DNA of 24,617 bases, from positions 1 through 24,617 of the IMG/VR virus record IMGVR_UViG_3300025082_000069; one strand, given 5' to 3'. This document shows positions 1-19,026 of the stretch, one piece after another; within the stretch, counting starts at the first letter, position 1; every line of letters begins with the position of its first letter. The notes below the pieces were generated by a model. That model ran no database searches. It was given only the letters and a program-made list of their open reading frames with translations, and was not told where the DNA came from. The position numbers were made by a program, and so were the translations under genes. Origin of the DNA: a virus.

Positions 1-94
1 AGTCGTAGATAAAGGTGAAACTGCCGACCACCAGGGCGATGGTTGTTACGATATGCCCCGCTGACAAGGTTTTGCTGAATGGTGTGTCGGTCAT
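1..94 (-). CDS. Small membrane protein, N-terminal fragment (possible holin-like)
   Basis: The gene starts with ATG at 94 and runs off the left edge of the window, so only 31 codons are visible. The peptide begins MTDTPFSKTLSAGHIV and continues into a hydrophobic stretch (about residues 13-29, rich in V, T, A, L, F and I) that looks like a transmembrane segment. Its start overlaps the stop of the exported-protein gene by four bases (ATGA), so the two are probably translationally coupled. A small membrane protein at the end of a virion gene block, next to an exported protein, would fit a holin or another lysis component. That role is inferred from position and hydrophobicity only, because no family motif is visible in the fragment. 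Confidence 0.6.
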   Translation of the reverse strand, partial: MTDTPFSKTLSAGHIVTTIALVVGSFTFIYD

Positions 95-480
95 AATTCG
101 TTTCCTATAATATCCTTGCGTCTGTCTGATCTGTTGGCTGGCCTGTTATCAGACCAGAGTACCGGGCCACCTGAAAACAACAGGCAAGCGGTTTCGTCTT
201 TTACCCCCACCAAACTGAATGTGCCGTCTTCCCCACCGTCTACAGTAAGGTAGATGTCTACCCCACCTCTGGTTTTGGTCAGGATTGCCCTGATAACTTC
301 CCCATACTGATGTTCGAGGAAGTGAAACATCCCAGCAGAATCACGGCTGCAATACAGCATGAACTGGGCAGGGACAGCTTGAGTGCCAGGTGGCGGCAAG
401 ATGTTCTGCCGTTGCTCTGCGTGTGCAGGTAAAAAAAAAGCCGCGACTAGCGCGGCTGTGGCGATGATGGATTTGATCAT
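91..480 (-). CDS. Small exported protein with cleavable signal peptide
   Basis: This is a 129-residue protein starting at ATG 480. The start overlaps the TGA of the upstream 638-aa gene by four bases (ATGA), which is preferred over an in-frame start ten codons earlier. The N-terminus (MIKSIIATAALVAAFFLPAHA) is a classic Sec signal peptide: a short basic n-region, a hydrophobic core and an A-H-A cleavage site followed by EQ. There is no lipobox cysteine and no further membrane segment. The mature part has two cysteines (in LYCSRD and ETACLL) that could form a disulfide in the periplasm, and looks beta-rich. The family is not recognised. Its position beside a membrane protein at the end of the virion genes makes a lysis or envelope role plausible, but this is inference. 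Codons 8-17 double as a terminator hairpin. Confidence 0.75.
   Translation of the reverse strand: MIKSIIATAALVAAFFLPAHAEQRQNILPPPGTQAVPAQFMLYCSRDSAGMFHFLEHQYGEVIRAILTKTRGGVDIYLTVDGGEDGTFSLVGVKDETACLLFSGGPVLWSDNRPANRSDRRKDIIGNEL
431..457 (-). terminator. Intrinsic terminator-like hairpin inside the signal-peptide coding sequence
   Basis: On the minus strand a perfect 7-bp stem AGCCGCG/CGCGGCT with a 5-nt loop (CTAGT) is followed at once by nine T residues. This is the textbook layout of a Rho-independent terminator. It lies within codons 8-17 of the exported-protein gene and encodes the hydrophobic core ATAALVAAFFL. It would attenuate transcription into this gene and the membrane-protein gene after it. 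Whether it acts when ribosomes translate through it cannot be told from sequence. Confidence 0.7.
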
Positions 481-2393
481 TGTCCTGGTACTGTTGGAAT
501 TTCCATCCACCTATTCAGATCATCTTTCAGGTTGCTCATGAAGTTCTCATCGGAACCTGAAATGTATTGCGTACCTGTAAACACCGGTATCGCAGCAATC
601 CAATTTCCGGCAGCTCTGGTCCCGGCTTTAACATTCTGTCCGGCTAACATCCAATCCAGGAATCTCTTATTTGTCCACAGCTTGGACCCAGCATAAGCAC
701 TCCCTACCGTCATGGCAGTAGTCACTGGATCAACCCACATGCCACCGAATGCACCCGTCATAGCTAATGCCTTGGCCGTTCCAGATGGGTTGGCAAATTT
801 ACCGCTTGCACTCAGCCGGTCAGCTATTCGAGCCAGACTTGCCAACTGAGCATCAATCCCACCACGTTTTGCATTACCCCCAAACAGAAGCTCCATCGGT
901 CGTTTCGACGCTTTGCGTAGTTTGTTGTAGTTTGTGAGGAATGTGCGTGGTGAAAACACTTGACCGGTATAATCCTGTTGGGCGGGAGTCGCCTGGCCCA
1001 GCCTCTGCACAACAGCCCCTCTAACCAATTTCCAAGTCTCAGGATCGGTCGCTTTTTTCGCTTTGGCAATTATAGTGATGTTGCCGCTTTCTATTGCCTT
1101 GAATAATTTATCTGGTTTAAGTTTCAGAACATCATCGAACGTCCTGACCATAGCCCCATCATCGCCAAATGCCATTCTCCAGTATCTGCTGGCATTGCGC
1201 CATGCTCGGCGTGGTGAACTATCACCAGTTCTTTTGGCGATGTCATCAGCAGCGGCACCCATGTCCGTCATAAGGTGACCATACAACTGTTTTGCTATAC
1301 CTGGATCTCCAGCATCAGTAACCATGCCAGTTGTTTTTCGTCCTACCTGTGTACGAATCTCATCCAGAATATGCCAGGGAATGTCGTCATGCTTTGTCAG
1401 AGCGGTGTCGATCTTATCCATGAGGTTATCGCCAAACACTTTTCTCAGGTCATCGTATTCCTCTGTGTATCTTCCAGCATAGGTTGCTAGAAAGTCTTTA
1501 GTATTATCGAGCCTGACTATAGTGGATTGGGGAATCAGGTCATTGGCTATACGATAGAGCGCAGTGGATCTTTCTTCGTACTTTGCGACTTTAGCGGCGG
1601 CTGATGCTTGTATTCTCTGTCCGGCCACCAAAGAATCCGTGGTCATATCCAAAGTAGCATCATCGGACAAATGCTTGATCGCGTTATTGAACTGCTTATA
1701 GACTTTCGTGAGTTTGTCATTAACATTTCCAGAAGTAATTGGAACCTCTTTTAATAACTGTTCCAACCCCTGAACGATTGAACTATCCGAGACAGTGCCT
1801 GGGGTGTAGTCCATTCCCAGCATCCTGAGATCCGATATATTTCTCTGGACGTTTCGGGTCGCAGGCGCTCGCAACACTCTCGCACCAGCAGTTGGCGCTG
1901 TAGTCGCCAAGCCACCACCTAAAAGTGCCAGCATATCTGAACTGATTTCCTCATCCCCAGGAAGCACGTTACCCATGACATTCTGATCAAAACGCTTTCC
2001 AGTAAGACCACCAATTCCCCCCATTACATACGGGGTCGCAACCCTGGCGGCCTGTAGTCCTAGATTGGCAATTTGCCCTGCACCAGGTACTGGTGGCACT
2101 CTGGGAATACTCTTTTGGAACCGTTGTCCTAAATTGAAACCAGCCGCTGCTGGGCCTGCCTCCCAACCAACTCTTTTGGCTAGATCCCCTAAACCACCAT
2201 ACCAGGGTTGATCAGCCTGGACCTGTTCGGTCCGAACAATATGTTGATTCATCCAATCTGGATTAGGGGTGCTGGATTCGATTGGTATTTCATCATCAAT
2301 TACTATCTCATCATCAACCGGTGGTTCAACAACCGGTACTATCTGATCATCCTTCTTTTTTTGTCCCACCAGATATTCGTCTTCCCAGCTCAT
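477..2393 (-). CDS. Probable internal virion / DNA-ejection protein (638 aa)
   Basis: The start ATG at 2393 overlaps the preceding stop by four bases and has a good ribosome binding site (AGAGG about 7 nt upstream). The first 45 residues are acidic and proline-rich. Residues ~65-190 are glycine/alanine-rich and moderately hydrophobic, with runs such as GGIGGLTGKRF and ALLGGGLATTAPTAG. The middle (~190-480) is mainly predicted helix with many K, D and R residues. A second Gly/Ala-rich, membrane-prone patch lies near residues 540-570. Large size, amphipathic helices, Gly/Ala-rich patches and a late position after the tail genes resemble ejected internal proteins of short-tailed phages. No specific family motif is recognised, so the role is inferred from composition and gene order. 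Confidence 0.6.
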   Translation of the reverse strand: MSWEDEYLVGQKKKDDQIVPVVEPPVDDEIVIDDEIPIESSTPNPDWMNQHIVRTEQVQADQPWYGGLGDLAKRVGWEAGPAAAGFNLGQRFQKSIPRVPPVPGAGQIANLGLQAARVATPYVMGGIGGLTGKRFDQNVMGNVLPGDEEISSDMLALLGGGLATTAPTAGARVLRAPATRNVQRNISDLRMLGMDYTPGTVSDSSIVQGLEQLLKEVPITSGNVNDKLTKVYKQFNNAIKHLSDDATLDMTTDSLVAGQRIQASAAAKVAKYEERSTALYRIANDLIPQSTIVRLDNTKDFLATYAGRYTEEYDDLRKVFGDNLMDKIDTALTKHDDIPWHILDEIRTQVGRKTTGMVTDAGDPGIAKQLYGHLMTDMGAAADDIAKRTGDSSPRRAWRNASRYWRMAFGDDGAMVRTFDDVLKLKPDKLFKAIESGNITIIAKAKKATDPETWKLVRGAVVQRLGQATPAQQDYTGQVFSPRTFLTNYNKLRKASKRPMELLFGGNAKRGGIDAQLASLARIADRLSASGKFANPSGTAKALAMTGAFGGMWVDPVTTAMTVGSAYAGSKLWTNKRFLDWMLAGQNVKAGTRAAGNWIAAIPVFTGTQYISGSDENFMSNLKDDLNRWMEIPTVPGQ

Positions 2394-4084
2394 AGTTGTA
2401 CCTCTGAATCAGATGGGTGTGGAAGTTTATGAAGACCCTCTTTATTCTTTATAGTGAAATAGGAACCAGGTGGAAGTGCATCACGTTGTTTCTCGGTTCT
2501 GACCTCTGCGGGATTCCATATTGTATATGGTAGGTTGTCATACACCCATTGCGGATTGTTTGTTTCTTCAAGCATCCGAATGTAATCACTAAATGCGCGG
2601 AGCTTCCAGATAATTGTTTTCTCAGTATCCGTCATTGTTGGGAAGAATTTTGATTTGTATTCTGCTGCTTCCGCTACACTAATGGCCGCACCAGATTCAA
2701 GACGAAGGGCATTAGCCAAGGCGGTTCTCATTTGCGCCCAGGCCAACCGACCTTCGCCAGGCACATTAAGCGAGGTCAAAATTATATCCAGACGATCAGC
2801 TTTGAAATTTCCAGACTCATCGAAAAAATATGACGCTGCATCGTTCGACCACTTTCTGGACATTGCAGCCATTGCAACTTGCCTGGCCTCACCCATCTTT
2901 TGGCCCTGCTTACCTAAATTATTAGTAATCTCGGTTTTACTAGCAGCGGGATCTACCATATCCCACCCTTCGGGAACCTTTGTATCATCCCTCAAGAAAT
3001 AACGCGGGAGGCCGTTTTCATCGGTCTTAACATAACCAAGATGCCCAACACCCTCTGGGTCCACGAAACGCATCGATCTTCCTACGGGATCTTTTACAGG
3101 TTTGTCTTGGTGCCAATCACGGGATTTAATTCTTTTGACAAATTCAGGTGAATCAATCCGTCCGGTCCAGGGTTTGGCTTTTGTATCTTCGTGGTTGTAG
3201 AGGGTGACGTAACCTTCCTTATTAGGAATAAGACCCATATTTAATACTGTTGGTAAATAATCAACACCACCACCAGCATTAAGCCACGCTACTGATAATT
3301 CAGCATTCGTGTCCGGTACCCCTTTTTTCAGGATACTCTGCAATGCTCTCTGATTTACGATGTCTTTATATTTAGCTACCGCACTTGCTTCATAGCTGGA
3401 TGAATTATCTTTAGTACCCCATATGCTGGATACTGCGCGGAGAATGTTTTTTTTCCGTTTGATCTGATTTAAGATGGATACATCGTTACTCAGTTCTGCC
3501 TTCGCTGTTGTTCGAGCATCGGTCGTCGGCGCTCTCGTCACCGCACCAGATCCACCCAGAGATCCAACACCCCCAGTGCGTTCCCAATCCTGCTGGTTGC
3601 GGTTGAAGGTACGCTGCCTGTTATCCATAGAAAGATTTAATGCGCGAGCTATACCGCTGGGTTTTTCTACCATCGCATCTTTAGCGCCTGGGTAGACCGG
3701 GACAGTGCGTGGGATTAAGCCTGGTTGTGCTTGCATAGCATCTACATCAGTGCCTGGAGCTTCCGCATCACGCGTTTGATCAGCGAGAACTTGCTGTTGC
3801 CATTCTTCCCCTTGGATAAGGCTCGGCGGGACATCTGTTCGATTAACGCCGAACAGCCTATTGCGATCTGCCGCCCTTAACATCGTATTGAGATTGGCTC
3901 GATTAAGACTTTCGGCAGTTTGTGGCCGTATAGTCTCCACCGGATCTGGGAGAAGACCGGGCATCGGCACAGTCTCGCCCGTCATCAGGTTGGTCAGCGT
4001 AGCTTCGGCTTGTTCTCTCCGCGCAGCCATTTCAGCCGCGAGTAGTTCCTTCCTACGTTGGGCCATCTGTGCGTCTGTTGGCAT
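2390..4084 (-). CDS. Large structural/internal virion protein of unknown family (564 aa)
   Basis: The start ATG at 4084 overlaps the preceding TAA in a TAATG junction, and the stop overlaps the next start as ATGA, so it sits inside a tightly coupled string. The N-terminal 40 residues form a charged Ala/Glu/Arg-rich helix. The next ~130 residues are proline-rich and probably extended. The rest is mixed, with many aromatic residues and a likely globular region from about 200 to 560. No signal peptide, membrane segment or catalytic motif is visible. Proteins like this, lying between tail genes and the last ejection-type gene, are often packaged inside the capsid or in the tail. Structural or internal virion protein is therefore the most reasonable reading, but the family is not recognised. 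Confidence 0.5.
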   Translation of the reverse strand: MPTDAQMAQRRKELLAAEMAARREQAEATLTNLMTGETVPMPGLLPDPVETIRPQTAESLNRANLNTMLRAADRNRLFGVNRTDVPPSLIQGEEWQQQVLADQTRDAEAPGTDVDAMQAQPGLIPRTVPVYPGAKDAMVEKPSGIARALNLSMDNRQRTFNRNQQDWERTGGVGSLGGSGAVTRAPTTDARTTAKAELSNDVSILNQIKRKKNILRAVSSIWGTKDNSSSYEASAVAKYKDIVNQRALQSILKKGVPDTNAELSVAWLNAGGGVDYLPTVLNMGLIPNKEGYVTLYNHEDTKAKPWTGRIDSPEFVKRIKSRDWHQDKPVKDPVGRSMRFVDPEGVGHLGYVKTDENGLPRYFLRDDTKVPEGWDMVDPAASKTEITNNLGKQGQKMGEARQVAMAAMSRKWSNDAASYFFDESGNFKADRLDIILTSLNVPGEGRLAWAQMRTALANALRLESGAAISVAEAAEYKSKFFPTMTDTEKTIIWKLRAFSDYIRMLEETNNPQWVYDNLPYTIWNPAEVRTEKQRDALPPGSYFTIKNKEGLHKLPHPSDSEVQL

Positions 4085-4488
4085 TATCTTGGCCTCGGTT
4101 TTCTTTTTGCAGGATCACCCAGATACGGGTTGTACGAACCGCCTGTTGGGATACCCCTGGTGGTCAGCATGGATGGATTTGCAACGGGTTGATGTCGAGC
4201 GCCTGGGACGCTTACAGGGACTAGAGACTTAAACGGTTGGTCAGCCGCGTCGTAGTCTGCACCAGCTTCTGCAAGTTGTTCTTTTAGTTTTTCCTGAAAA
4301 CCGTCATTAAACCAACTCGACGGGGTATGCTTGATGGTAGGTTTTCCAGCGGATGCACCACCATATCCGATCATTGCTTGGTCATAAGCGCCTTGTGCTG
4401 GAAAGTCAGAACGATCAGGGCGTCTTCTCATCCCTTCCCATCCAGACGTAGTAGCCGAAGCTGGTGTAAAAATTCCACCGGCTGCCAT
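4084..4488 (-). CDS. Small hypothetical virion-region protein (134 aa)
   Basis: The ATG at 4488 overlaps the preceding TGA by one base (TGATG). A GTG one codon earlier is also possible, but the ATG is the more likely start. The protein is rich in glycine, alanine, proline and serine, with a short helical stretch (FQEKLKEQLAEAGADYDAA) near the middle and a basic C-terminus ending KRKPRPR. Much of it looks disordered. It ends in a TAATG overlap with the 564-aa gene, so it is probably expressed with it. The basic tail could contact DNA or the acidic parts of neighbouring internal proteins. The family is not recognised and no function is claimed. Confidence 0.55.
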   Translation of the reverse strand: MAAGGIFTPASATTSGWEGMRRRPDRSDFPAQGAYDQAMIGYGGASAGKPTIKHTPSSWFNDGFQEKLKEQLAEAGADYDAADQPFKSLVPVSVPGARHQPVANPSMLTTRGIPTGGSYNPYLGDPAKRKPRPR

Positions 4489-5537
4489 CACAACACCCCG
4501 TAGTCAACACGTTTCACCCCGTCGATCTCGCTAACAGCATCAGGTCGTGTTAGCTCGACTTCCTGGGCCATTACGCCGCGACTGCGATGGGATGGATCGT
4601 TGTACTTGTAGTTGTACGAATAAACATTAAAGCCTTTCCAGGTTGTGCCTTCCGGTACGATGTTCTCCTTGATACGAATGTCAGACCACGGAATAACTGA
4701 CGCAATACTCGCCAGCTTGCCAATCGTATCCAGACCGCTTGGGCCTGGTGCTGTGGTACTGCCACCGTAGTCGCCTGAGATACTCGCCATGTAGTTCTGT
4801 AAACTCGTCTGTGGTGCCTGGGCATCGTACATATAGCGGGAAACATCCTGCTCTATAGCCCTCTGGTTCATCGCCTGCCGTGCATCTCCCACATCCCTAA
4901 CAGCACCGTACATCCCCAAAGGTGCGCCCATGATCGTTGGATAAGCACCCATGCCGTACTGCTGCTGCTGTATGCCCATCTGTGCCGCTGGCATTCTCAT
5001 GCCCTGTGCTTGACCGTAAGCACCACCGTACATTTCAGCGGCCTTGTTGATCATCTGCTGGTTGGCTGATGCGATTGCTTTTGCCTGGATGTTGTTGGCG
5101 ACCGAACTGCCGCCGGGCTGCGCTTCAACCATTGCACTGCGGATGCCGGGAAGGACGTTATTCAACAACTGGTCCCTCGCCTGGTTGCCGAACACCGTCA
5201 TCATGTCGGTATAAGGTGTACCCGCTCCGGTGTTGACGTTACCGGCGAGAAGGTCAGACATCTGACCTGTGCTGAATGGTGTTGCGCCAGCCAAACTCCG
5301 GCCTAATGCCCCCTCTGCACCCATCTGCATACCGGTTGTGCGCGGTCCCATTGCATAGCCCAGCACAGACCGTTGTGCTGCCTGTTGAGCTGGGTCAAAA
5401 GGCGCGACAGTCGGACCTGGATAGTAATCTGGTGCGCCAGCCTCATAAAGACCCCTTGCTTGACCAAAGCCGTACTTCAGCGGCTCAATTTGTTCGGCCC
5501 AGGGTTCCGTTGTTTTGGTTCTTGATCCACCACTCAT
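4488..5537 (-). CDS. Internal/structural protein with C-terminal S74 (intramolecular chaperone) domain
   Basis: This is a 349-residue protein with a clear ribosome binding site (GAGGA before ATG 5537). Residues 1-260 are rich in Gly, Ala, Gln and Met and look helical or low-complexity, unlike a beta-helical fibre. Residues ~285-349 match the Peptidase_S74 domain, the intramolecular chaperone of endosialidase and other tail spikes. It opens SDIRIKENIV, with the Ser and Lys five residues apart as in the self-cleavage dyad, then has YSYNYKY, GVMAQEVE, PDAV and VDYGVL. The gene ends exactly at VDYGVL, so the long helical tail seen in spike chaperones is absent. In the family this domain drives trimer folding and then cuts itself off. 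On a protein of this composition the role may be to trimerise an internal or tail-tip protein. Confidence 0.8.
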   Translation of the reverse strand: MSGGSRTKTTEPWAEQIEPLKYGFGQARGLYEAGAPDYYPGPTVAPFDPAQQAAQRSVLGYAMGPRTTGMQMGAEGALGRSLAGATPFSTGQMSDLLAGNVNTGAGTPYTDMMTVFGNQARDQLLNNVLPGIRSAMVEAQPGGSSVANNIQAKAIASANQQMINKAAEMYGGAYGQAQGMRMPAAQMGIQQQQYGMGAYPTIMGAPLGMYGAVRDVGDARQAMNQRAIEQDVSRYMYDAQAPQTSLQNYMASISGDYGGSTTAPGPSGLDTIGKLASIASVIPWSDIRIKENIVPEGTTWKGFNVYSYNYKYNDPSHRSRGVMAQEVELTRPDAVSEIDGVKRVDYGVL

Positions 5538-5547
5538 TTTTTAATCC

Positions 5548-6753
5548 TCATTTTTCATCCGACATACCGTAATTCACCCACTCACCCTTGCCATCGTTTC
5601 GGCTTTGCACCCATTCCCAGAGGCCACGACCAGATGGTTTATCCGGCATCGTGAATTTTCCAGGTGCTACATCTGGCGCAGATGTGCCGGTATTGGTCAT
5701 CAAGCCGAGATACGCATTGGGATTCGCTTCGTAAGCCTTTTGTGTAGCCTCATCGATTCGTTTTTGTGCCTTTTCTTTTTCAGCAAAATATCTATCTTCC
5801 CCACCATGTTTTTCTACAAATTCAATATCTTTTTGAATCTGCGGATCAATAGTGATTAAATTATCTCTCGCCTTGTTGTAGAGTTCTTCCCTTGCCACCG
5901 AGCCGGTGGGATCTCCCCCCAAGTCCCTAGACCGATCTGAATTATATTTATCAATTATTGGCTGGACAGTTTTTACGGTGGTGACGCTGGTTGTGTCTGT
6001 TGTGTCTGTTGTGTCAGTGGTTGTAGTGTCAGTCGTTGTAGTGTCGGTCGTACCGTCAGTCGTTGTCGTACCATCAGTCGTTGTCGTACCATCAGTCGTT
6101 GTCGTACCACCAGTCCTTGTGGTTCCACCTCCAGCCCCACTCCGCGCATAGTTCCAGAAGTTGGGCAACGTATAGTTCCAGTTTGTACCTAGTGCTGGCA
6201 GTGCCTCAAAATTCCACATCCCCGCCGGTACACCCGAAGCGATCAATCCCGCATCAGAACCAGGAGCTGCGTACAATGGATTTGCCACTCCAGTCCCACT
6301 CCAATTCAAAGCAGTACCTGAGGCTATTGGGTATCCCGGTCGGTCAACACCCGTGATGGGAACGAACGGATCTGCTGGTGTTGTTCCACTTGCGCCACTC
6401 AAAAAGTCCTCAAAACTTGTGCTTCCGGTCCACGGCTGTACGCTAGTTGCTCCCATATAAGTACCAGACCGAAGGGCGTCATCTTCAGCGGCATGCGCTC
6501 GACCGAAAGCGGCTTTAGTGGTTCCACCACGTTTAATCCAATAATCGGCTTGCTGTTCAGGCGTTAAATTGGGATTTCCCTGTCCATCAAATTGGCGCAT
6601 GTCACCACCTTTTTGAAAGGTGTCAATCATCTTCCAAGTGACCGAATCCCCGATATAATTCTCAAAATCCTGATCAGTAGCACTACCAGCTTTGTATCGT
6701 GAATACGCATCTGCGTAATTGTGTTCACCACCACCAAATAATCCACCAGCCAT
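5548..6753 (-). CDS. Hypothetical structural protein with Thr/Asp-rich repeat linker (401 aa)
   Basis: The gene starts at ATG 6753, five bases after the GNAT gene stop, with an AGAGA-type binding site overlapping the end of that gene. The N-terminus (MAGGLFGGGEHNYADAYSRYK) opens a compact helical region with many aromatic residues, followed by a Gly/Thr/Pro-rich part. Residues ~210-260 are a low-complexity linker of GTTTTD and DTT units. The final 140 residues are charged and helical, with repeated Glu and Lys (for example EKEKAQKRIDEATQKAYEAN). A helix, flexible linker, helix plan fits a virion protein with two separated folded parts. No family is recognised. The position between the GNAT-like gene and the S74 protein places it in the internal/structural block. 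Confidence 0.55.
   Translation of the reverse strand: MAGGLFGGGEHNYADAYSRYKAGSATDQDFENYIGDSVTWKMIDTFQKGGDMRQFDGQGNPNLTPEQQADYWIKRGGTTKAAFGRAHAAEDDALRSGTYMGATSVQPWTGSTSFEDFLSGASGTTPADPFVPITGVDRPGYPIASGTALNWSGTGVANPLYAAPGSDAGLIASGVPAGMWNFEALPALGTNWNYTLPNFWNYARSGAGGGTTRTGGTTTTDGTTTTDGTTTTDGTTDTTTTDTTTTDTTDTTDTTSVTTVKTVQPIIDKYNSDRSRDLGGDPTGSVAREELYNKARDNLITIDPQIQKDIEFVEKHGGEDRYFAEKEKAQKRIDEATQKAYEANPNAYLGLMTNTGTSAPDVAPGKFTMPDKPSGRGLWEWVQSRNDGKGEWVNYGMSDEK
5979..6126. repeat. In-frame tandem repeat encoding (GTTTTD)n and (DTT)n
   Basis: An 18-bp unit occurs in near-perfect tandem copies between about 6051 and 6126 (gtcgttgtcgtaccatca on the plus strand). It grades into shorter 9- to 15-bp units with the same gtcgttgta and gtgtctgtt words towards 5979. 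Read on the minus strand these give GTTTTD and then DTTTT and DTT units in the middle of the 401-aa protein. All unit lengths are multiples of three, so copy number can change without shifting the frame. Confidence 0.85.
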
Positions 6754-6755
6754 AG

Positions 6756-7178
6756 CTAAATCTCTTTTGTAAAAATGTGATACGAATTAGTCCAGCCTTT
6801 TAAAATCTTCCCCCAACCCTTACGTCCCCAGGCTTCGAGATGTGAACAGCCTAAACTTTTGGCGTAGTTCTCAAGCTCTGGGTAAAACGGAAACCACTTG
6901 TTCATATCTCCACCCCCTATAGATACCACCCGCAAAACTCTCTTGCGTGGATAAGGGATATGCTGCGTGACCATCGCAGCCAGAACATCACCGTCCTCGA
7001 CGGCGATCCATAATTGCATCTCTGCCTTTTCCAGCATAGGCTTCATATCTTCGGGCAACATCTCGCCTTCAGAATGTGGTGTGGCTTTTGCCAGGTGTCC
7101 CTCGACGTGGGGCCAGATTGCGTCTACTTCGGATGGGTGGATCAGGAATGCTTTACAATTTATTCCAGCCTGTCCCAT
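6756..7178 (-). CDS. GNAT-fold acetyltransferase-like protein (140 aa)
   Basis: The protein has the layout of a compact GNAT N-acetyltransferase as found in many phage genomes. There is an N-terminal helix (HPSEVDAIWPHVEGHLAKA), a beta pair (LWIAVEDGDVLAAMVTQ), the strand LRVVSIGGGDMNKWFPFYPELENYAKSLGC and a closing segment HLEAWGRKGWGKILKGW. The GRKGW stretch occupies the usual acyl-CoA-side region, but the canonical Q/R-x-x-G-x-G/A pyrophosphate loop is not well formed, so catalysis is uncertain. The start ATG 7178 has no clear Shine-Dalgarno and lies eight bases after the previous stop, suggesting coupling. It might modify a virion or host protein, or act as a structural GNAT fold. The substrate is unknown. 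Confidence 0.65.
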   Translation of the reverse strand: MGQAGINCKAFLIHPSEVDAIWPHVEGHLAKATPHSEGEMLPEDMKPMLEKAEMQLWIAVEDGDVLAAMVTQHIPYPRKRVLRVVSIGGGDMNKWFPFYPELENYAKSLGCSHLEAWGRKGWGKILKGWTNSYHIFTKEI

Positions 7179-7188
7179 AATTATAAAA

Positions 7189-8142
7189 TCAAGAGTTGGT
7201 CATCCCCTTACCGGCGACAAAACCGTAAAAATTAGTTCCCCCGTCAAAAGTTGTGAAGGTTACGCAATCAGTTCCAGAGGATGTCATCAGGTTATCACTG
7301 GTGTCATCGCCATCGGCCCAGTAAACGGCATTGCCACCGCCATCATGCGCCCCAGCCTTGAAAGAGGCCGTGCAACTACCCAGGTTAGTACCCAAGATGG
7401 TTACGGAGTTTGAATGGGAACTCAGGGCGTTGGTAATTCCTATATTAAAGGTTCCACCACCCGACATGGTAAGAGTCTGGACATTGCCATCCTCAAGATC
7501 AATATTAAATGCTGCGGTCTTTGTTCCTATTGCGCTGACAGTTTCTGCGTAGTCTGTAAAGCGTGGTCTGCTAACCACCGTATCGGCACACGATATACCA
7601 TCATCTACCGTTAAGTTCTGGACAAATCTACCATCGCCAAAGACATCTAAAGTATATGAGGGGCTAGTATCTAAAATACCTACCCTCTGCCCATTTAACG
7701 TAATATGAACTTGGTTGTCTACATAAAAATCAGCACGGGGGCTACCCGCATCGCAACGGATTTTTAAGTTTGCTGAGTTGGCAACATTGTTATCCATCTC
7801 CAATGTTAAATCCCCAGAAGTACCCGAAATCTCTACAGTACCCGCATCTAGGGCTAACAGATTTACCCAATGTGAACCCTTCTTAAAGACGTAAAGCCCC
7901 TCAACACCAGTGCCTAAAGGGTCTGCATTTGTACCGTCAAAATACCTGATATCCCCCGCTCTGGGTTTATCTGGTACTGCATTAATTCTTTCCAGCCTGA
8001 AGGTTGCTTGATTGAAAAGTACGTTACCAAGACGCTTCAGTTCATCAACCGTGTATAACCCTAAAGATTCTGGATCAGAGGGTAATGGGCCGGGTTCATA
8101 ATGAATTACAGATTTTTCTACCCTATCAGTATAGGTAGCCAT
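7189..8142 (-). CDS. Tail fibre protein, short paralogue (317 aa)
   Basis: Residues ~28-100 (YTVDELKRLGNVLFNQ to SHWVNLLALDAG) resemble the N-terminal domain that anchors many phage fibres to the virion. Residues ~114-185 (EMDNNVANSANL, VGILDTSPSYTLDV) and ~189-317 (TDYAETVSAIG, TLTMSGGGTFNIGI, TFDGGTNFYGF) match two separate blocks of the 597-aa fibre at 12712-14505. The whole TAAELN-repeat centre of that longer fibre is absent here. The last 128 residues are probably the distal, receptor-contacting or trimer-capping domain. DNA identity to the paralogue is clearly lower than protein identity, so the duplication is old. The gene begins two bases after the proline-rich protein ends. Confidence 0.8.
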   Translation of the reverse strand: MATYTDRVEKSVIHYEPGPLPSDPESLGLYTVDELKRLGNVLFNQATFRLERINAVPDKPRAGDIRYFDGTNADPLGTGVEGLYVFKKGSHWVNLLALDAGTVEISGTSGDLTLEMDNNVANSANLKIRCDAGSPRADFYVDNQVHITLNGQRVGILDTSPSYTLDVFGDGRFVQNLTVDDGISCADTVVSRPRFTDYAETVSAIGTKTAAFNIDLEDGNVQTLTMSGGGTFNIGITNALSSHSNSVTILGTNLGSCTASFKAGAHDGGGNAVYWADGDDTSDNLMTSSGTDCVTFTTFDGGTNFYGFVAGKGMTNS

Positions 8143-8143
8143 T

Positions 8144-8923
8144 CTAAACTTGACCTAAGAGTCCACCAGAACCTAGTGGGCCTATCCCCAGTGGATCGGC
8201 TAATGGGTCGGCGGTTAATAGACCACCCGGAGGCATGGTGGGTAACATTGGTCCCGCCATAGGAGCTACATCTGGAATTGCAAAAGTCATAGGCCGCATA
8301 CCGGGAAAATTTGCCAGCATAGGATAAGCCTGCTCCATCATCTGTGGCGTAAGAAGCGGTATCCCGGCTAAGTAACCCGGCGCTTCATCGGTCAAAGTAC
8401 CAGCATGGTACTGCTGGGCTTGCGATAAATTGGGGGATAATCCAGAAGAAGTTTCATACTTTGCTATTGCTGCAATAGGATCAGTCCTGAACTCAGAAGC
8501 AAAGTCAGGGTGTCTTGCTGTCAGCAACTCTATGTAATCATCATAATCAGTTCGGCTGGGCTTGCCTGTCATCTGACTAAATACATAGGGGTTTAGACCC
8601 GGAGACACCTGTTCCAGAGTTCTAGGGTCCACTACCGCAGAATATCTGGGAACTCTGTCTTGTTCGTAGACCGAATCATCTTGTGGCCCATACGGTTTGG
8701 TAGGATCAATTGCCCCCAACCTGTCCTCCTCAAGTTTTGCTTGATAAGGAGTTAAGAGAGATGGTGAATATTCCTGCGGCACTTTCCCCGGAACAACGGG
8801 GAGTGGGGAATAAAATGGATTATCGCTACCATATCCACTCATAACCCTAGTGGCAGGAGCTAATGCCCCACCCGCAATATTCGCCAACAATTCCTGTAAC
8901 GTTTTTCTTCTTCGCTCTGGCAT
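8144..8923 (-). CDS. Proline-rich virion-region protein of unknown function (259 aa)
   Basis: ATG 8923 overlaps the TAA of the nozzle-like gene (TAATG), so the two are coupled. The N-terminus is basic (MPERRRKTLQELL). Residues 54-61 read PSLLTPYQ, a string also present in the 852-aa protein at 21437. The body is rich in proline, tyrosine and aspartate, and the last 70 residues are a Pro/Gly/Met/Leu-rich low-complexity tail ending GGLLGQV. There is no signal peptide or membrane helix. It could be a small structural or internal virion component, since it is translated with the tail protein before it. The family is not recognised. Confidence 0.55.
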   Translation of the reverse strand: MPERRRKTLQELLANIAGGALAPATRVMSGYGSDNPFYSPLPVVPGKVPQEYSPSLLTPYQAKLEEDRLGAIDPTKPYGPQDDSVYEQDRVPRYSAVVDPRTLEQVSPGLNPYVFSQMTGKPSRTDYDDYIELLTARHPDFASEFRTDPIAAIAKYETSSGLSPNLSQAQQYHAGTLTDEAPGYLAGIPLLTPQMMEQAYPMLANFPGMRPMTFAIPDVAPMAGPMLPTMPPGGLLTADPLADPLGIGPLGSGGLLGQV

Positions 8924-10536
8924 TAGTTCATCTTGGAACCGCGAACCCCTGCGTTACTAACATCCAGAGAATAGCCGTCCAATCTCCATGTTTGATCTCC
9001 GGTGGATTCAAATTTCACACCGATATACTTTCCGGTTACTCTAACGGGAACCTTTGATTGTGAATCAGGATTAAATGTATATGGGCCTTCCCATGCTACT
9101 GATTCTTCAGTAGACATCTGACTGCCTACATAAACATTCACAGTAGTAGAACCTGATACCGACATCTTAGGCCAGACTGAGGTAACGTGTTTAACCATTG
9201 CCTGATTGGGCTGATTCTGTTCATCCATAGACAGTCCAGTTCTTTCAATATAGGAAGTCATATTAGTACCGTCTGACGTATTTCCGGTGTTGTTTCTGTA
9301 CAATTTTGTATCAGTAGGAGATACCATAACCAGAGTTTTACCTTCCTTACTTGTAAAGGAAGATGAAGTAATATCATTCCAGTTTAATGTTTCAGATGTC
9401 CAGGTCGTACTAGCAGCATTCCATGAAGCGGCAGAAGTAGGATCGGCTTGAGTACCGTATCCGATAAACCCCAAGTTTGGAATATCACGCTCTGTAAATG
9501 TCTGGTTTATCCAGTTATAAACTAGTGCTTTATCGCACTGGGTATCGGAATTACCAGAAGTTACATAACAGGCCCACATCTCTGTATTAGCATAATCCGC
9601 TACTACAAATGATTTCTCATATTCATCACCATTGATATTACCAAATACATAATCCCGCATTTTATGTGGAAGTATGGATTTAATCTGTCTACCATCATTG
9701 ACATACATATCACCATTACCAAAGATGAAATGCCCACCATCAAATTCCACTACGCAGTTCTTGGATAATGCGCCGACAGTTGGAGATAGTTGACGAAACG
9801 AGAAGATGAACGGAGTTCCAACATACGTCATCGAGTAAGTGGAATCTTCTTTATAGATCATAAAGGCGTCACCAAGAGGTACACCATCTACAATCTTTCC
9901 CCTGGTATCAGCTAATTCATACTCACCAGCGTCTACCGTTGCAGACGTTTCATCCCATGACGTAGGAACAGCCTGTGTAGCCCCCTCTGTTGACCATTTT
10001 ACAAGTCTTGTATATGGAACAGAAGACTTCTTTATATTCAGGGCAATCAGGAAGGAGCGGAATGCTCTTACAGAATAGGCTTCTGTTGAGGCAGGCCAAT
10101 TACTCAAGTCTGCCATCTTGGTGGATGTAGACGGCACACCTGAACTCAACGCCCAGAATTGCGGGTCATCAAAGCCGTTAGCCATGATAAGAACACCACC
10201 TAATACGGTGGATGTCCAACCTTCTTTTGCGGTAGCACTGTAATCACCGCCAGATGTTCTGGTTATGTCAGTCCATGACGATCCGTTGTGGACGTATATC
10301 TTAGCCAGCCCACCTATGATCCAGTAGTTGGAACCGCCTATTTCAAGATTGACAATATGATAGGGCGCAACAGGACAGGAGGCCATAACTTCCTTATAGC
10401 CGGGGGTTTTCTGAATAGCCCCATGCTCCGCCCTTATATTATTGCCATCCGTCCAGACATTAGGAGGCAGTTGCCAAGAATTTATATCTTTGACAATCCC
10501 CATCTGCCCGACATTATCAATCGGTATAAGAGCCAC
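8923..10536 (-). CDS. Probable tail nozzle / beta-propeller tail protein (537 aa)
   Basis: The start is a GTG at 10536 with a strong GAGG eight bases upstream. The protein is almost entirely beta, opening with MALIPIDNVGQMGIVKDINS, then a strand-rich body with repeated short aromatic blocks (NYWIIGGLAKIYVHNGSSW, GHFIFGNGDMYVNDGRQI, SFVVADYANTEMWACYV). It closes with a jelly-roll-like segment ending WRLDGYSLDVSNAGVRGSKMN. This pattern, and a length above 500 residues just after the fibre genes, match the tail proteins of environmental short-tailed phages that form the nozzle below the adaptor ring. The opening 'own a value, plot it on a grid' type of repeated strands suggests a propeller. Assignment is by pattern and context, not by a diagnostic motif. 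Confidence 0.65.
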   Translation of the reverse strand: MALIPIDNVGQMGIVKDINSWQLPPNVWTDGNNIRAEHGAIQKTPGYKEVMASCPVAPYHIVNLEIGGSNYWIIGGLAKIYVHNGSSWTDITRTSGGDYSATAKEGWTSTVLGGVLIMANGFDDPQFWALSSGVPSTSTKMADLSNWPASTEAYSVRAFRSFLIALNIKKSSVPYTRLVKWSTEGATQAVPTSWDETSATVDAGEYELADTRGKIVDGVPLGDAFMIYKEDSTYSMTYVGTPFIFSFRQLSPTVGALSKNCVVEFDGGHFIFGNGDMYVNDGRQIKSILPHKMRDYVFGNINGDEYEKSFVVADYANTEMWACYVTSGNSDTQCDKALVYNWINQTFTERDIPNLGFIGYGTQADPTSAASWNAASTTWTSETLNWNDITSSSFTSKEGKTLVMVSPTDTKLYRNNTGNTSDGTNMTSYIERTGLSMDEQNQPNQAMVKHVTSVWPKMSVSGSTTVNVYVGSQMSTEESVAWEGPYTFNPDSQSKVPVRVTGKYIGVKFESTGDQTWRLDGYSLDVSNAGVRGSKMN

Positions 10537-10539
10537 TAT

Positions 10540-10962
10540 TTATTCCTCATCCAAGTCCCACAATTGTGTTTCTTCATTCCAGCTATAGATGATAAGACGA
10601 CCTTGGTCATCATACTTATCAGTTACTGGCATTGGCACTGGCGCTTCCCATGTGCAAGTTGGTTCATCCAGTAACCAACTGTCATAAGGTTTAGGCGGGA
10701 TAAACGCATCTCTGGAGGAATCATAGGTGTAACCGATCCCAGCGTAATTTTTACGAAGAACAATGCCGCCATCCGGTTCTTCACTATTTGGAGCGTAATG
10801 GATACCTCCTCTGGTATTGTACGAAGTACGCTTACATACTTGACCATGAAATTCTCCATACCAAGTTTCCGGGTCTTTACCTTCAAGCAATTCGTTTTCG
10901 TCCTTGCCTTTAATAACCCAAGTGACAATATTATTTTCGTTTACAAAAGCGTAATGTGCCAT
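10540..10962 (-). CDS. Conserved small phage protein in the fibre cluster (140 aa)
   Basis: The chosen start is ATG 10962, giving MAHYAFVNENNIVTWVIKG. It overlaps the TAA of the glycine-rich gene (TAATG) and has GGAG about nine bases upstream, so an in-frame TTG five codons earlier is not needed. The features NYAGIGYTYD, DAFIPPKPYDSWLLDE and a Trp-rich C-terminus (IYSWNEETQLWDLDEE) are typical of a small protein family common in cyanophages and other marine phages, usually near tail fibre genes. Its function is not established. A fibre-associated or virion structural role follows only from its neighbours: the glycine-rich adhesin before it and the nozzle-like gene four bases after it. Confidence 0.7.
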   Translation of the reverse strand: MAHYAFVNENNIVTWVIKGKDENELLEGKDPETWYGEFHGQVCKRTSYNTRGGIHYAPNSEEPDGGIVLRKNYAGIGYTYDSSRDAFIPPKPYDSWLLDEPTCTWEAPVPMPVTDKYDDQGRLIIYSWNEETQLWDLDEE

Positions 10963-11870
10963 TATGCTGCGCTCCAACTCACGTTATCTGAACCATCGGT
11001 AAAGGTAGTCACTGACGTACCCCCAGCCGTAGCTGTGGATGCTGTAAGTGATCCACCAACTGTTATAGTATAATCATCGGAATAACTGAGAATAACTAAA
11101 CCAGAGCCACCGGCACCGCCGCCAACAGTTTGTCCACCGCCGCCGCCACCACCACCGCCTGTATTTGCCGAGCCAGCATTTCCTGCTTGAGACGAAGTTC
11201 TGGTTCCAGCACCACCTCCGCCAGAACCACCTGCAGCCGCCGAGCCGCCATCCCAAGCACCGCCACCTCCGCCACCACCGCGAGTAACTGACGATCCCGT
11301 AATCGCTGACGAAACGCCATTGCCACCAGCACCAGCTTGACTTCCCGATCTGCCAGTGCCAACCACTCCTGCACCACCACCACCACCACCAACTACATAG
11401 GTAGCGGCAATATGATAACCAAGACCACCATCATATCCCTGATTTGCAGTACCACTTCCCACTGCTGTCGATGCCTCATTCCCGGCCCCACCGCCACCAC
11501 CACCAGAACCGCCAGCCCGACCATCGGCACCATGGCTACCACCGCCACCTCCGCCAATTGCGGTGTATGTTGAAAAAGTAGAATTACTTCCATCACCTCC
11601 CGCGGTACTAGCACCGGCTGCGGAACCACCACCACCGATAGTTACGTTGAAATTGGTTCCTAAAGCTAGTGTTGGCGCTGCTCCAGCAGAGTCACCACCT
11701 CCAGAACTTTCGCCAGAAACGGTAGAAATATAGCCGCCAGCCCCGCCACCACCGCCGCCATAGGAACCACCACCGGCGCCTGCGCCTGCAATACAAATAA
11801 AAGAAACTTCAACCCCTGTAGTTACTCCAGCGGTTCCCATTAATGCAGCTTTAAATGCTCCTAGTGGCAT
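10962..11870 (-). CDS. Glycine-rich tail adhesin-like protein (302 aa)
   Basis: The start MPLGAFKAALMG at 11870 is chosen because AGGA lies seven bases before the ATG. An open frame continues 14 codons upstream but has no binding site. Residues ~30-255 consist of many poly-glycine runs of 4-9 residues separated by short variable segments, forming the kind of packed polyglycine-II bundle known from T4-like gp38 adhesins. After the last run comes GGSGLVILSYSDDYTITVGG, a motif typical of glycine-rich phage proteins, and a short beta tail. The variable segments between glycine runs are likely receptor-contacting loops. It lies between a TAAELN-type fibre and the 140-aa conserved protein, so it probably forms or caps a fibre tip. 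Confidence 0.75.
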   Translation of the reverse strand: MPLGAFKAALMGTAGVTTGVEVSFICIAGAGAGGGSYGGGGGGAGGYISTVSGESSGGGDSAGAAPTLALGTNFNVTIGGGGSAAGASTAGGDGSNSTFSTYTAIGGGGGGSHGADGRAGGSGGGGGGAGNEASTAVGSGTANQGYDGGLGYHIAATYVVGGGGGGAGVVGTGRSGSQAGAGGNGVSSAITGSSVTRGGGGGGGAWDGGSAAAGGSGGGGAGTRTSSQAGNAGSANTGGGGGGGGGQTVGGGAGGSGLVILSYSDDYTITVGGSLTASTATAGGTSVTTFTDGSDNVSWSAA

Positions 11871-11880
11871 AATCTTATCC

Positions 11881-12699
11881 TCATGGTGATTGCATATCTG
11901 TTCCAGCAGCAAAGCCGTACCAGATTACTCCACCATCTACAGTTGTAAATGTTAAAATATCTATTCCACTAGACGTTAATGTGGGTTCTGTTCCACTAGC
12001 CCAATCGACTGCACCGGGCCAAACTGTTCCACTATTAGATGCGCCATTGGTAAGTATTAACGTGAATGAACAGCAACTGCCAGAATCGGAGGGGTTATCA
12101 AATGTATAGGTCGTTTCTGATGCAGTCTGCGTAGCAGTTACAACATTACCAAGCAAGAGATCAATGGACTGACTGCCGCCCCCAGTATTACCAATTGCAT
12201 TTACTGTTTCCCCGTAATCCTTAAACTCAGGACGCTGTACAATCTTATCTGCGTGATTAACAACACCACTGGCATCAGCGGTAACTGCCTTGGAATTTTC
12301 AACAGTACCCAGAGTCGTGATATCGTTGTAGTTCAACTCTGCTGCCGTAGCGGTAACCCCGTCTACAATATTTAACTCAGCCGCCGTTGAAGTAACACCG
12401 TCCAGAATATTGAGTTCTGCTGCCGTGGATGTAACACCATCTAAGATATTGAGTTCGGCAGCGGTACTTGTTACCCCATCCAAGATATTTAGTTCAGCAG
12501 CCGTAGAGGTTACACCATCCATGATGTTTAACTCTGCCTCAGAAGCACTGATAGCAGTTGTTCCTGAAAGGCCGCTGAACTGGGTCTTCAGGACAGTTTT
12601 CAACATCCTTAGATGGTCATCCCCCTGCGCTACAGAATCGCTGGTAGTCGGATTTGTAGCCGTTAATTGGCTAATATATGTTGCGCTTTCTAATGCCAT
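11881..12699 (-). CDS. Tail fibre protein with 13-residue TAAELN repeats (272 aa)
   Basis: ATG 12699 is preceded by AGAGGA. The N-terminus (ATYISQLTATNPTTSDSVAQ then GDDHLRMLKTVLKTQF) is a standard phage fibre attachment segment. Residues ~56-120 are five tandem 13-residue units ELNI(L/M/V)DGVT(S/A)TAA plus a final partial unit, forming a slender repetitive shaft. Next comes TTLGTVENSKAVTADASG, a linker shared with the 597-aa fibre. The C-terminal ~120 residues start with RPEFKDYGETVNAIG and end VDGGVIWYGFAAGTDMQSP, a diverged version of the tip domain found in the other two fibres. It probably makes a homotrimeric fibre. The shared shaft and tip architecture with its upstream neighbour suggests they arose by duplication. 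Confidence 0.82.
   Translation of the reverse strand: MALESATYISQLTATNPTTSDSVAQGDDHLRMLKTVLKTQFSGLSGTTAISASEAELNIMDGVTSTAAELNILDGVTSTAAELNILDGVTSTAAELNILDGVTSTAAELNIVDGVTATAAELNYNDITTLGTVENSKAVTADASGVVNHADKIVQRPEFKDYGETVNAIGNTGGGSQSIDLLLGNVVTATQTASETTYTFDNPSDSGSCCSFTLILTNGASNSGTVWPGAVDWASGTEPTLTSSGIDILTFTTVDGGVIWYGFAAGTDMQSP
12340..12534. repeat. Five 39-bp tandem units encoding ELNI-x-DGVT-x-TAA
   Basis: Five consecutive units of exactly 39 bases encode the 13-residue fibre repeat on the minus strand. The protein units are almost identical, but the DNA is not. The Ser of VTS is written TCT, AGT, TCC and TCA in successive units (the fifth has Ala), and Gly alternates GGT/GGG. The repeat therefore exists mainly at protein level. 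Confidence 0.9.
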
Positions 12700-12711
12700 T
12701 CTTTTATCCTC

Positions 12712-14505
12712 TTATGAATTGGCAAATTCTTTGCCAGCAACAAATCCATACCAGTTAGTTCCGCCGTCAAAGGTAGTGAAGGTTACGCAATCAGTTCCTG
12801 AAGATGTCATAAGGTTGTTACTTGTATCACCTCCGCCAGCCCAGTAGACAGCATTTCCGCCACCACCATTCGCACCAGCAAGGAATGTACCGGTACAGCT
12901 TCCCAAGTTGGTTCCCAGAATGGTTACCGAATTGGAGTGGGAAGATACTGCATTGACGATTCCGATATTAAAAGTACCTCCACCCGACATCGTTAGGGTT
13001 TGAACATTGCCGTCTTCTAAATCAATATCAAAAGCGGCAGTCTTGGAACCAATAGCATTTACAGTTTCTGAATAATCCGTAAGTCTTGGCTTCGTAACCT
13101 GTTGATCGTCAGCAGCTAATGTTCCTGTCATCGTTCCACCAGCAAGGGGCAGCGCAGCAATATCTGATAACACCTCAGATGCGCTTCTACCTTCTACTGC
13201 GGTTCCGTCAATTTTCAGGAAGTCATTGTCAGCAACGCCAGAAGCATACTGGGCTACGTCGTACTGTGAAATACCCTGTGCAACAGATAGTTCAGTGCTT
13301 GTTATTTCCAGGCCACCGTTGGACATAAGATCGGTGCTGAAGGTAGTGCTGGTTAAATCCAGTCCATCACCCGCGGTGTAGGTCGTATTAGTATCAGTGC
13401 CGGTAATGGTTAGGGTGTCGCCACTCATTGCGGTAGCAACATTTGAACCTCCAGCAATAGTTAAAGTATCGCCGGGAGATATGCCCGTAGAACCTGAGTC
13501 ACCCGCTACAGTCGTATCGGCGGTTGTCTGGGCATCTACATACGCTTTAATTGATTGCTGAGTAGAAAGGTTTGATGCACTGTCTGATGACATGTCATCT
13601 TCGTCTGCAATGCCCTTACCATCAAGCAGATTAAGTTCAGCCGCAGAAGCTGTTACCAGAGTACCCGCTAGTTTCAGGCCACCATCCACAAGATCGTGAG
13701 ATGCAATATTAAGAATCTGATCTCCATCAGTAGCACCAACAGTGACTACACTTGATGCCTGTGTAAGAGCCTTAGAATCTTCTGATGTACCAAGCGTTGT
13801 AACATCCAGATAATTCAATTCGGCAGTTGTACCAGTATATCCATCAATTAAATTTAACTCAGTCGCAGATGCTGTAACCAGCGTTCCACCAAGTTTTAAC
13901 CCATTCGTACCATCATGTGAAGCAACATCAAAGTCAATTGCTCCATCCGATATCGTTACATCCTGATCTTCATTGATGGATATTGCAGCAGTTGTACCAA
14001 CCGCAGAGCCTAGTCCTATGACTAGATCATCAGTAGTGTCGTCAAGACCAACATAGAAGTCTTGGGCGTTGCCGTCAAAGACAATCTTCTGATCCTCTGC
14101 GCCACCATCACCTACTGTTAGGTTTCCGCCGACTATAAGATCGCTGGTAAATCTGCCGGTATCATTGACATCAAGAGCGTATGAAGGGCTGGTATCACCA
14201 ATCCCTACACTTTGACCTTTCAGTGTAATAACGGCACTGCCATCTAAATATAGGTCAGTCCTAGCATTACCCGCGCCATTGTTAATCTGGAAATTTGAAG
14301 AATTGGCAGCATTATTATCCATTTCAAATATCTGGTCACCAGAAGAAGTCTCCATCTCCATAGTGTTACCGAGATTAATTTTACTGACATCAATGGCTGC
14401 ATCAGATGCTACATCTGCATTGGCAATCGTACCGTCAAGAATCATAGTAGTGGTTACGGTATCCGTTCCACCACCTTGTGTTACTGCAAAATTACTTAAT
14501 GACAT
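12712..14505 (-). CDS. Long tail fibre protein (597 aa)
   Basis: ATG 14505 has a strong GAGGGGG site eight bases upstream, just after the adaptor gene stop. The first 50 residues (ending MILDGTIANADVASDAAIDV) are a common fibre collar-type module. Residues ~61-133 (EMDNNAANSSN, VGIGDTSPSYALDV) match the 317-aa fibre. The centre (~135-465) holds ATELNLIDG and TAELNYLD repeats, GDTLTI units and other beta-shaft sequences. Residues 470-597 (TDYSETVNAIG, TLTMSGGGTFNIGI, TTFDGGTNWYGF) are the tip domain also found in the 317-aa fibre and, diverged, in the 272-aa one. The beta-rich repetitive nature indicates an elongated trimeric fibre for host recognition. It is the first gene of the fibre block. 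Confidence 0.82.
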   Translation of the reverse strand: MSLSNFAVTQGGGTDTVTTTMILDGTIANADVASDAAIDVSKINLGNTMEMETSSGDQIFEMDNNAANSSNFQINNGAGNARTDLYLDGSAVITLKGQSVGIGDTSPSYALDVNDTGRFTSDLIVGGNLTVGDGGAEDQKIVFDGNAQDFYVGLDDTTDDLVIGLGSAVGTTAAISINEDQDVTISDGAIDFDVASHDGTNGLKLGGTLVTASATELNLIDGYTGTTAELNYLDVTTLGTSEDSKALTQASSVVTVGATDGDQILNIASHDLVDGGLKLAGTLVTASAAELNLLDGKGIADEDDMSSDSASNLSTQQSIKAYVDAQTTADTTVAGDSGSTGISPGDTLTIAGGSNVATAMSGDTLTITGTDTNTTYTAGDGLDLTSTTFSTDLMSNGGLEITSTELSVAQGISQYDVAQYASGVADNDFLKIDGTAVEGRSASEVLSDIAALPLAGGTMTGTLAADDQQVTKPRLTDYSETVNAIGSKTAAFDIDLEDGNVQTLTMSGGGTFNIGIVNAVSSHSNSVTILGTNLGSCTGTFLAGANGGGGNAVYWAGGGDTSNNLMTSSGTDCVTFTTFDGGTNWYGFVAGKEFANS

Positions 14506-14517
14506 TTATATCCCCCT

Positions 14518-15144
14518 CTAGGGTGTTCCACTAGCGCTCATCACTCTCAAGTTCGAGCCTGAATGACGATCTTTGTTGTCCTGACTCTGAATACTTGCCA
14601 CTGCCTTCTCGAACGCACCCAGCCATACCGGAATTCTTTGGTCGTTCATAATGAAGGGTTCTGCTTCCAGCAATGTTCCGTATAAATACACGTTCGGATA
14701 ATTTGTCAGCATGTCGTTTGTGGTTGCTGAGTCGGATAGAGCTGTGAATGTTTTGTAGTAGAGCATCGAGGTTGTGTAGACAGCATCCGGGCCTGGTCCC
14801 AGGCGAACGTTGTCTGCGATGATCGTGAATACCTGGGGTTTGGCTTGAGCGCTTCCCGCCCATAATCTCGTCATCATTTCCGGTGTGATGTAAGCGAGTG
14901 GCGTCAGCGGATCTGTTGAGAGATGAAATTCCTTCATCTGCACGAAGCCTGTCGGCAGTGAGTATTCCCGTGTTCCTGCGACCGTGGATATTGCGGTGGA
15001 TACGGTTTCCATTTCTCTTATCCGCAACTCCCGAAACCGGGCTTCAGCCAAAACAATAAACTCCGGTATCCGATCGGTCAGGTCACTCCTGTCCAGCCAG
15101 TTAGCTGCTGCTGTCTGTAGTTCTGAATAAGTGCTTATTGCCAT
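14518..15144 (-). CDS. Head-tail adaptor protein (SU10-type, 208 aa)
   Basis: The protein begins MAISTYSELQTAAANWLDRSDL with an amphipathic helix, then IPEFIVLAEARFRELRIREME. It has a central beta region (STVAGTREYSLPTGFVQMKEF, ITPEMMTRLW) and the signature stretch NVYLYGTLLEAEPFIMNDQRIPVWLGAFEKAV. That arrangement is characteristic of the phage adaptor family of SU10-like and related short-tailed phages. The adaptor forms a ring under the portal to which the tail nozzle attaches, which agrees with its position between head-completion genes and tail/fibre genes. The start overlaps the end of the preceding gene by ten bases. No anomalies are seen. Confidence 0.8.
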   Translation of the reverse strand: MAISTYSELQTAAANWLDRSDLTDRIPEFIVLAEARFRELRIREMETVSTAISTVAGTREYSLPTGFVQMKEFHLSTDPLTPLAYITPEMMTRLWAGSAQAKPQVFTIIADNVRLGPGPDAVYTTSMLYYKTFTALSDSATTNDMLTNYPNVYLYGTLLEAEPFIMNDQRIPVWLGAFEKAVASIQSQDNKDRHSGSNLRVMSASGTP

Positions 15145-16105: not shown

Positions 16106-16114
16106 AATTTTTAC

Positions 16115-16616: not shown

Positions 16617-16630
16617 TTCTGCTCCGTCAT

Positions 16631-16658: not shown

Positions 16659-16678
16659 CTTGTTGGTTTACAGCCTGG

Positions 16679-17904: not shown

Positions 17905-17920
17905 TTATCTATCGTCCTTG

Positions 17921-18952: not shown

Positions 18953-18965
18953 ATGTTTCTCCATG

Positions 18966-18988: not shown

Positions 18989-18991
18989 CTA

Positions 18992-19023: not shown

Positions 19024-19026
19024 TTT

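Follow-up and report, generated by a model that had tools for sequence, protein, structure and literature searches.

Background

Terminators close to gene starts and reading frames that run through terminators are both already known, the latter from the pyrBI attenuator and the pil1 leader of Streptococcus gallolyticus, in which translation into the terminator suppresses it. In Escherichia coli the ampC attenuator is the terminator of the frd operon, so that the terminator of an upstream operon attenuates expression of a downstream exported protein. Functional terminators have also been described within the first 100 bp of coding regions (Li et al., PMC4824070), and 3' ends internal to ORFs have been reported (PMC7815308). 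In the E. coli experiments of PMC4824070, translation of an ORF lowered by 10% the efficiency of the terminator tR2 located 30 bp downstream of the AUG; tR2 efficiency was below 10% at 5 bp from an upstream stop codon and approximately 90% at 28 bp, with values of 0.12 and 0.8 at 17 and 18 bp from the stop in two sequence contexts. Here we describe a locus of a marine phage group at which a terminator-like hairpin coincides with the signal-peptide codons of a gene.

The late gene layout and the exported protein

The window (the whole 24,617-nucleotide stretch analysed) is a 24.6-kb podovirus fragment carrying the virion gene set of phage SU10, including the portal (PF23899), capsid (PF17236) and adaptor (PF24175) genes, with all main genes on the minus strand. 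The last gene of the virion block (2393-477, minus strand; 638 aa, weakly matching a DNA ejection protein family) ends in ATGA (480-477), in which its stop overlaps the ATG of a gene for a 129-aa exported protein of no known family (480-91, minus strand). We took the ATG at 480-478 as the start since it is common to the relatives, a GTG at 510 merely opening the longest frame. The window's contig end cuts the next gene (94-1, minus strand), which encodes a membrane and coiled-coil protein and is complete in a related contig (L021, 9596-9862). The earlier note had placed membrane-protein and lysis genes here; the membrane protein is borne out, and lysis is only suggested, by a homologue in Alteromonas phage P24 that lies one gene away from a lysozyme gene. 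At three other loci (L081, L084 and L085) the downstream gene comes immediately after the large virion gene and the exported gene is missing, such that the latter looks like a dispensable insert at this position. Elsewhere in the window, a group I intron (Rfam RF00028, 76.9 bits; 17569-17340, minus strand) separates two frames (17904-17554 and 17287-16679) of the SU10-type major capsid gene.

The first codons of the exported gene (480-418, minus strand) encode MIKSIIATAALVAAFFLPAHA, which, judged by eye, has the layout of a Sec signal peptide: a short basic n-region, a hydrophobic core and a small-X-small cleavage site (AHA). Relatives with different signal-peptide sequences retain this n-region, core and cleavage layout. 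Signal peptides are swapped freely on an otherwise conserved protein. Cys 44 and Cys 99 are the only residues invariant across 16 aligned exported proteins, which suggests a disulfide-bonded periplasmic protein. No match was found in Pfam or PHROGs, and comparison with PDB sequences gave a best E of 0.2 or worse and no named relative. An AlphaFold model was of low confidence (mean pLDDT 68); its viral Foldseek matches (E < 0.001) were confined to uncharacterised proteins of uncultured phages, and Foldseek against the PDB returned none with E < 0.3. In the phages collection the cassette had no good match (nine records, none reaching 80% query coverage), a Vibrio phage match extending over 18 bases only.

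A terminator-like hairpin within the signal-peptide codons

Codons 8-17 of the exported gene contain, in the sense orientation, a perfect GC-rich hairpin followed by a T tract, as the earlier note had described. The stem (AGCCGCG-CTAGT-CGCGGCT, 457-439, minus strand) pairs 457-451 with 445-439 in seven base pairs, six of them GC, around a five-base CTAGT loop, and the nine-T run (439-431, minus strand; codons GCT TTT TTT TTA) begins with the last stem base, which pairs with A457. The ORF (480-91) covers the entire structure, which begins 24 nt into the gene and 19 nt past the stop of the upstream virion gene (16 nt in L049). It thus shows the GC-rich stem of at least 5 bp, the short loop, the U tract directly after the stem and the position shortly after the stop of a preceding gene that characterize Rho-independent terminators. 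The stem folds at -11.9 kcal/mol (33 nt), a value equalled by 6 of 200 shuffles, and the folding z-score of its 90-nt context is -3.2. A simple terminator scan of both strands of positions 1-20000 found 27 terminator-like sites against 17.3 expected, among which this hairpin has the longest T run. Searched against Rfam at gathering score, positions 431-480 gave no match, the group I intron being the only match in the window.

When codons were redrawn 200,000 times from the phage's own codon usage with the peptide MIKSIIATAALVAAFFLPAHA held fixed, a stem of at least 7 bp with at least six T arose in 0.67% of draws, and one of at least 6 bp in 4.3%. Because an Ala-rich hydrophobic core itself favours such stems, the single sequence is weak evidence of a dual role; the relatives described below make that evidence strong, and together the two bodies of evidence agree with the proposal that codon choice here serves both the signal-peptide core and a terminator-like hairpin.

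Four such hairpins partition the late block, and only this one lies within a gene. The other three are intergenic, positioned after the major capsid gene (16659-16634), just before the scaffold gene (18988-18971) and before the portal gene (21416-21395), all on the minus strand. Those at 18971-18988 and 16634-16659 stand directly before the ribosome binding site of the next late gene. The arrangement is as if serial partial terminators graded late gene dosage.

Conservation among relatives

Close relatives of the window's exported protein are encoded at 15 IMG/VR loci, 14 of which could be compared at the start, L016 having no 5' end. Two (L002 and L013) share the signal peptide and the exact hairpin with seven T, and the remaining 12 combine a closely related mature protein with unrelated signal peptides that lack a hairpin. 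Searching for the peptide IIATAALVAAFF irrespective of codons recovered four loci, all with the exact hairpin. At another locus, L035, the same signal peptide and hairpin precede a distant mature protein (38% overall identity to that of the window), and DNA identity forms an island from the start codon to approximately the cleavage site, the sequence on either side of it being unrelated; a search for relatives of L035 returned no match besides itself.

To obtain a sample independent of the hairpin, we used the downstream gene as bait, which yielded 15 loci, 12 of them with the exported gene directly upstream. Signal peptides of the Ala-Ala..Ala-Ala-Phe type occurred in four of the 12 (L073, identical to L021; L076, identical to L060; L077; and L049), all of which kept the stem and T tract, and the other eight had different signal peptides without the hairpin. 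No hairpin was detected within 120 nt in 15 relatives with other signal peptides, a scan whose assumed starts were displaced by a few codons in L009, L010, L049 and L075, though within the scanned span. Since most relatives lack it (12 of 14 and 8 of 12 in the two samples), the hairpin is dispensable for the exported gene. Its absence alongside other signal peptides in the 15 relatives checked led us to reject it as a whole-family feature of the exported protein.

Aligning the seven distinct contigs with a signal peptide of this kind, hereafter terminator-type (the window, L021, L019, L035, L049, L060 and L077), we found a stem of 6-7 bp and a tract of six to nine T retained in every one. Nine T occur in the window only, with seven in L021, L019, L035 and L049 and six in L060 and L077. 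Standard pairs occupy 47 of the 49 pair cells (95.9%), against 29-61% when the alignment is slid. The earlier note had proposed examining whether relatives keep the stem and T tract while amino acids change, and L077 does so: it reads AAFMAAFLM rather than AALVAAFFM (codons GCC GCC TTC ATG GCG GCT TTT TTA), such that the loop residues LV become FM and the inner pair G-C becomes C-G, with a 7-bp stem and six T retained. This stem folds at -14.4 kcal/mol and would arise by codon choice with a probability of 0.0005; L077 was retrieved through the downstream gene, and hence not selected for the hairpin. Covariation amounts to one pair in one sequence, with the same inner pair broken in L060 (A.C, leaving 6 bp and six T), and 72 of 500 shuffles reach its score, so that the pair count falls short of significance when taken alone. 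The change in L049 is confined to the loop, and L035 has lost the outer A-T pair.

Letters in the stem are more conserved than those around it: window and L049 are identical at 14 of 14 stem letters and 22 of 40 others, and window and L077 at 12 of 14 and 26 of 43. Within the tract of all seven contigs, every Phe is TTT, all three Leu are TTA and the preceding Ala is GCT, although TTA accounts for 5-24% of Leu codons in the three contigs concerned and GCT for 24-29% of Ala codons. As codons outside the stem are also conserved among the window, L021, L019, L035 and L060, similarity within this group is due in part to recent exchange or descent. Overall, the relatives support selection acting on the RNA.

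Association with the upstream virion gene

The gene upstream of the exported gene was sought in 28 loci and found in 25. Terminator-type signal peptides occur with two upstream families, A (window, L021 and L077; 28-38% identical) and B (L019, L035, L060 and the near copies L027 and L067), and in a single further case (L049) with a fibre-assembly-like upstream gene. They were absent from the remaining upstream families among these 25 loci, and from L082, linked to family B only by weak partial matches. The 4-nt ATGA or GTGA overlap is present in all terminator-type relatives. On a tree of 16 mature exported proteins, signal-peptide type needs five changes, compared with a mean of 5.1 for shuffled labels. 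This scatter, on a tree in which L035 and L049 form long branches, led us to reject the view that signal-peptide type is inherited with the exported protein. Taken together, the restriction to particular upstream families and the scatter over the exported-protein tree indicate that the hairpin accompanies the virion-block end rather than the exported protein.

Copies in bacterial genomes and other phage genes

The exact 23-mer GCCGCGCTAGTCGCGGCTTTTTT, including six T, occurs at 12 places in the GTDB genome collection. Ten are between genes, 20-27 nt after a same-strand stop, and represent four separate loci: one in six Pseudomonas, one shared by Spongiibacter and Neomelitea, one in Vibrio and one in a gammaproteobacterial MAG. 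Another (L067) is a phage contig resembling L035, and the last (L062, a Pseudobdellovibrio MAG) has the 23-mer inside the start of a 292-aa frame with a TAATG stop/start overlap. In L062 (~723-800), an apparent signal peptide, MSISFQFIEKAALVAAFLFFSPVSS, includes the same terminator hairpin.

A codon-blind search of IMG/VR for AALVAAFF[M/L] yielded 21 stretches, eight of which had an upstream start and a continuing ORF (L019, L021, L027, L035, L044, L045, L046 and L049; the contig ends inside the ORF in L019 and L027). All eight pair perfectly at both free positions, the inner one being G-C in six and C-G in two (L044 and L046). The 13 stretches without such an ORF were mostly plain terminator-like hairpins, including six with an unpaired inner A-G and two with a wobble T-G. 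We excluded L051, with T-A at the covarying position, from the signal-peptide cases, as it has no in-frame start codon upstream and its open frame begins after the hairpin. In L051 (12036-12100) an upstream ATG frame stops just before the hairpin, one base off at a five-T run, reflecting either a frameshift site or an assembly error. L044, L045 and L046 are seemingly different genes, and terminator and signal peptide may have come to coincide on more than one occasion.

As a bacterial control, the codon-blind pattern matched in 10 of 398 genomes, several matches resembling non-coding terminators; the one clear coding case (L094) lacks the pairing, and the matches are too few for a rate. A survey of 97 loci (738 kb) found 11 sense hairpins with six T near gene starts and two elsewhere in genes, figures from which no rate was derived as the loci were mostly selected for the feature and included some duplicates and doubtful ORFs.

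Interpretation

We propose, with a probability of roughly two in three, that the hairpin is the Rho-independent terminator of the virion block, translated as signal-peptide codons of the overlapping gene. Conservation of the stem and T tract, the pair flip in L077, codon bias in the tract, the upstream-family link and the intergenic bacterial 23-mers all argue for an intrinsic terminator, as do the three further hairpins of the late block. Because the next gene starts inside the virion-gene stop, the terminator bases would be translated as the core of a signal peptide, the GC stem being read as Ala-Ala..Ala-Ala and the U tract as Phe-Phe. Polymerase stopping at the hairpin would yield virion mRNA only, and read-through would extend expression to the exported protein and the membrane-protein genes that follow, so that the terminator would set the ratio of the virion block to the next block. 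Ribosomes that end the virion gene 19 nt upstream and restart at the overlapping ATG probably lower termination efficiency, in which case the block ratio may be sensitive to translation. A transcript terminated in the T tract would have a start codon but no stop, and ribosomes restarting on it would need rescue. The hairpin, T tract, overlap, stop distance, conservation with one compensatory change and upstream-gene link are direct observations, from which we infer termination, its strength and the ribosome effect.

The strongest rival is the strict attenuator suggested by the earlier note, in which translation of the signal peptide melts the hairpin and the downstream genes are expressed only if the gene is well translated. 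The ORF does cross the entire hairpin, and its start overlaps the upstream stop, so that ribosome occupancy depends on coupled translation. The pil1 and pyrBI terminators are suppressed by translation into them. However, the hairpin follows the upstream gene, which suggests that it is primarily an operon-end terminator and secondarily an attenuator, and no pause site or signal is known for it. The claim that efficient ribosome loading would melt the structure also sits poorly with the loss of only ~10% of termination in E. coli at a terminator 30 bp after the AUG of a translated ORF (PMC4824070), a small effect attributable to the ribosome not having caught up so early. By analogy with those data, the suggestion is that own translation would suppress the hairpin little and that distance from the upstream stop should matter more: at 19 nt the hairpin lies within the steep range, and ribosomes finishing the upstream gene should have more influence than those translating the signal peptide. 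We consequently lowered our estimate for attenuation mainly through the gene's own translation, and consider the strict attenuator unlikely, if far from negligible.

It is improbable that the hairpin is a by-product of an Ala-rich signal peptide followed by Phe, folding by chance with no role in transcription. Such peptides do favour it, with 4-7% of codon draws for AALVAAFF-type sequences (window, L035 and L049) giving at least 6 bp and six T, and in L024 and L031 the 17-mer encodes the AALVAA of signal peptides that have no T tract. Against this stand the stem of L077, kept through a pair flip with differing residues (0.0005), the upstream-family link, the codon bias of the T tract and the occurrence of an identical sequence in bacterial intergenic hairpins placed like terminators. 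A stable hairpin can shield a 3' end, and a structure that starts 24 nt into the coding sequence, immediately in front of a ribosome restarting at the ATG, could act on translation or mRNA stability, as an export pause or a 3'-end guard of the virion mRNA, rather than on termination; we consider this less probable again, since it leaves unexplained the T tract with TTT and TTA codons in all seven contigs. Programmed transcriptional slippage giving two products, which a run of nine T is long enough to permit and which the earlier note had raised, is very improbable and was rejected because nine T are confined to the window copy, the other six aligned relatives having seven (four) or six (two), and no alternative product was identified.

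Under the terminator reading, one DNA stretch would satisfy two unrelated constraints, a transcription-end signal in RNA and an export signal in protein. In the right frame a GC stem is Ala-rich and a U tract Phe-rich, and we tentatively suggest, at distinctly less than even odds, that intrinsic terminators are a ready source of signal peptides, recruited when a gene starts inside the preceding stop, possibly several times. This phage cassette, the L044, L045 and L046 genes and the Bdellovibrio-like L062 gene may represent independent origins. A recruited terminator would then tie the amount of exported protein to translation of the upstream gene. Such recruitment would offer a simple route for export tags to arise from non-coding terminators, and gene or terminator finders that exclude coding sequence will miss such sites.

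Comparison with known systems

As in the cases of PMC4824070 and PMC7815308, the phage hairpin is a terminator, here predicted, shortly after a start codon; those cases were engineered or mapped singly, and in the portions available they report no double use as a signal peptide. The open literature searched revealed no paper on a terminator that doubles as signal-peptide codons, which does not prove that none exists. As in the pyrBI and pil1 systems, the frame spans the hairpin and a ribosome can in principle disrupt it; unlike in those systems, no regulating signal is known for the phage hairpin, and the frame encodes the export signal of a genuine protein rather than a dispensable leader peptide. 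The ampC arrangement likewise places an upstream operon's terminator before an exported protein, but its hairpin lies in an untranslated leader and not in signal-peptide codons. Ordinary Rho-independent operon-end terminators share the GC stem, short loop, U tract and position ~20 nt after the stop; in the phage, by contrast, the following gene begins ahead of the hairpin and continues through it in frame, which makes the locus a concrete case for studying how a terminator behaves right after a stop/start overlap.
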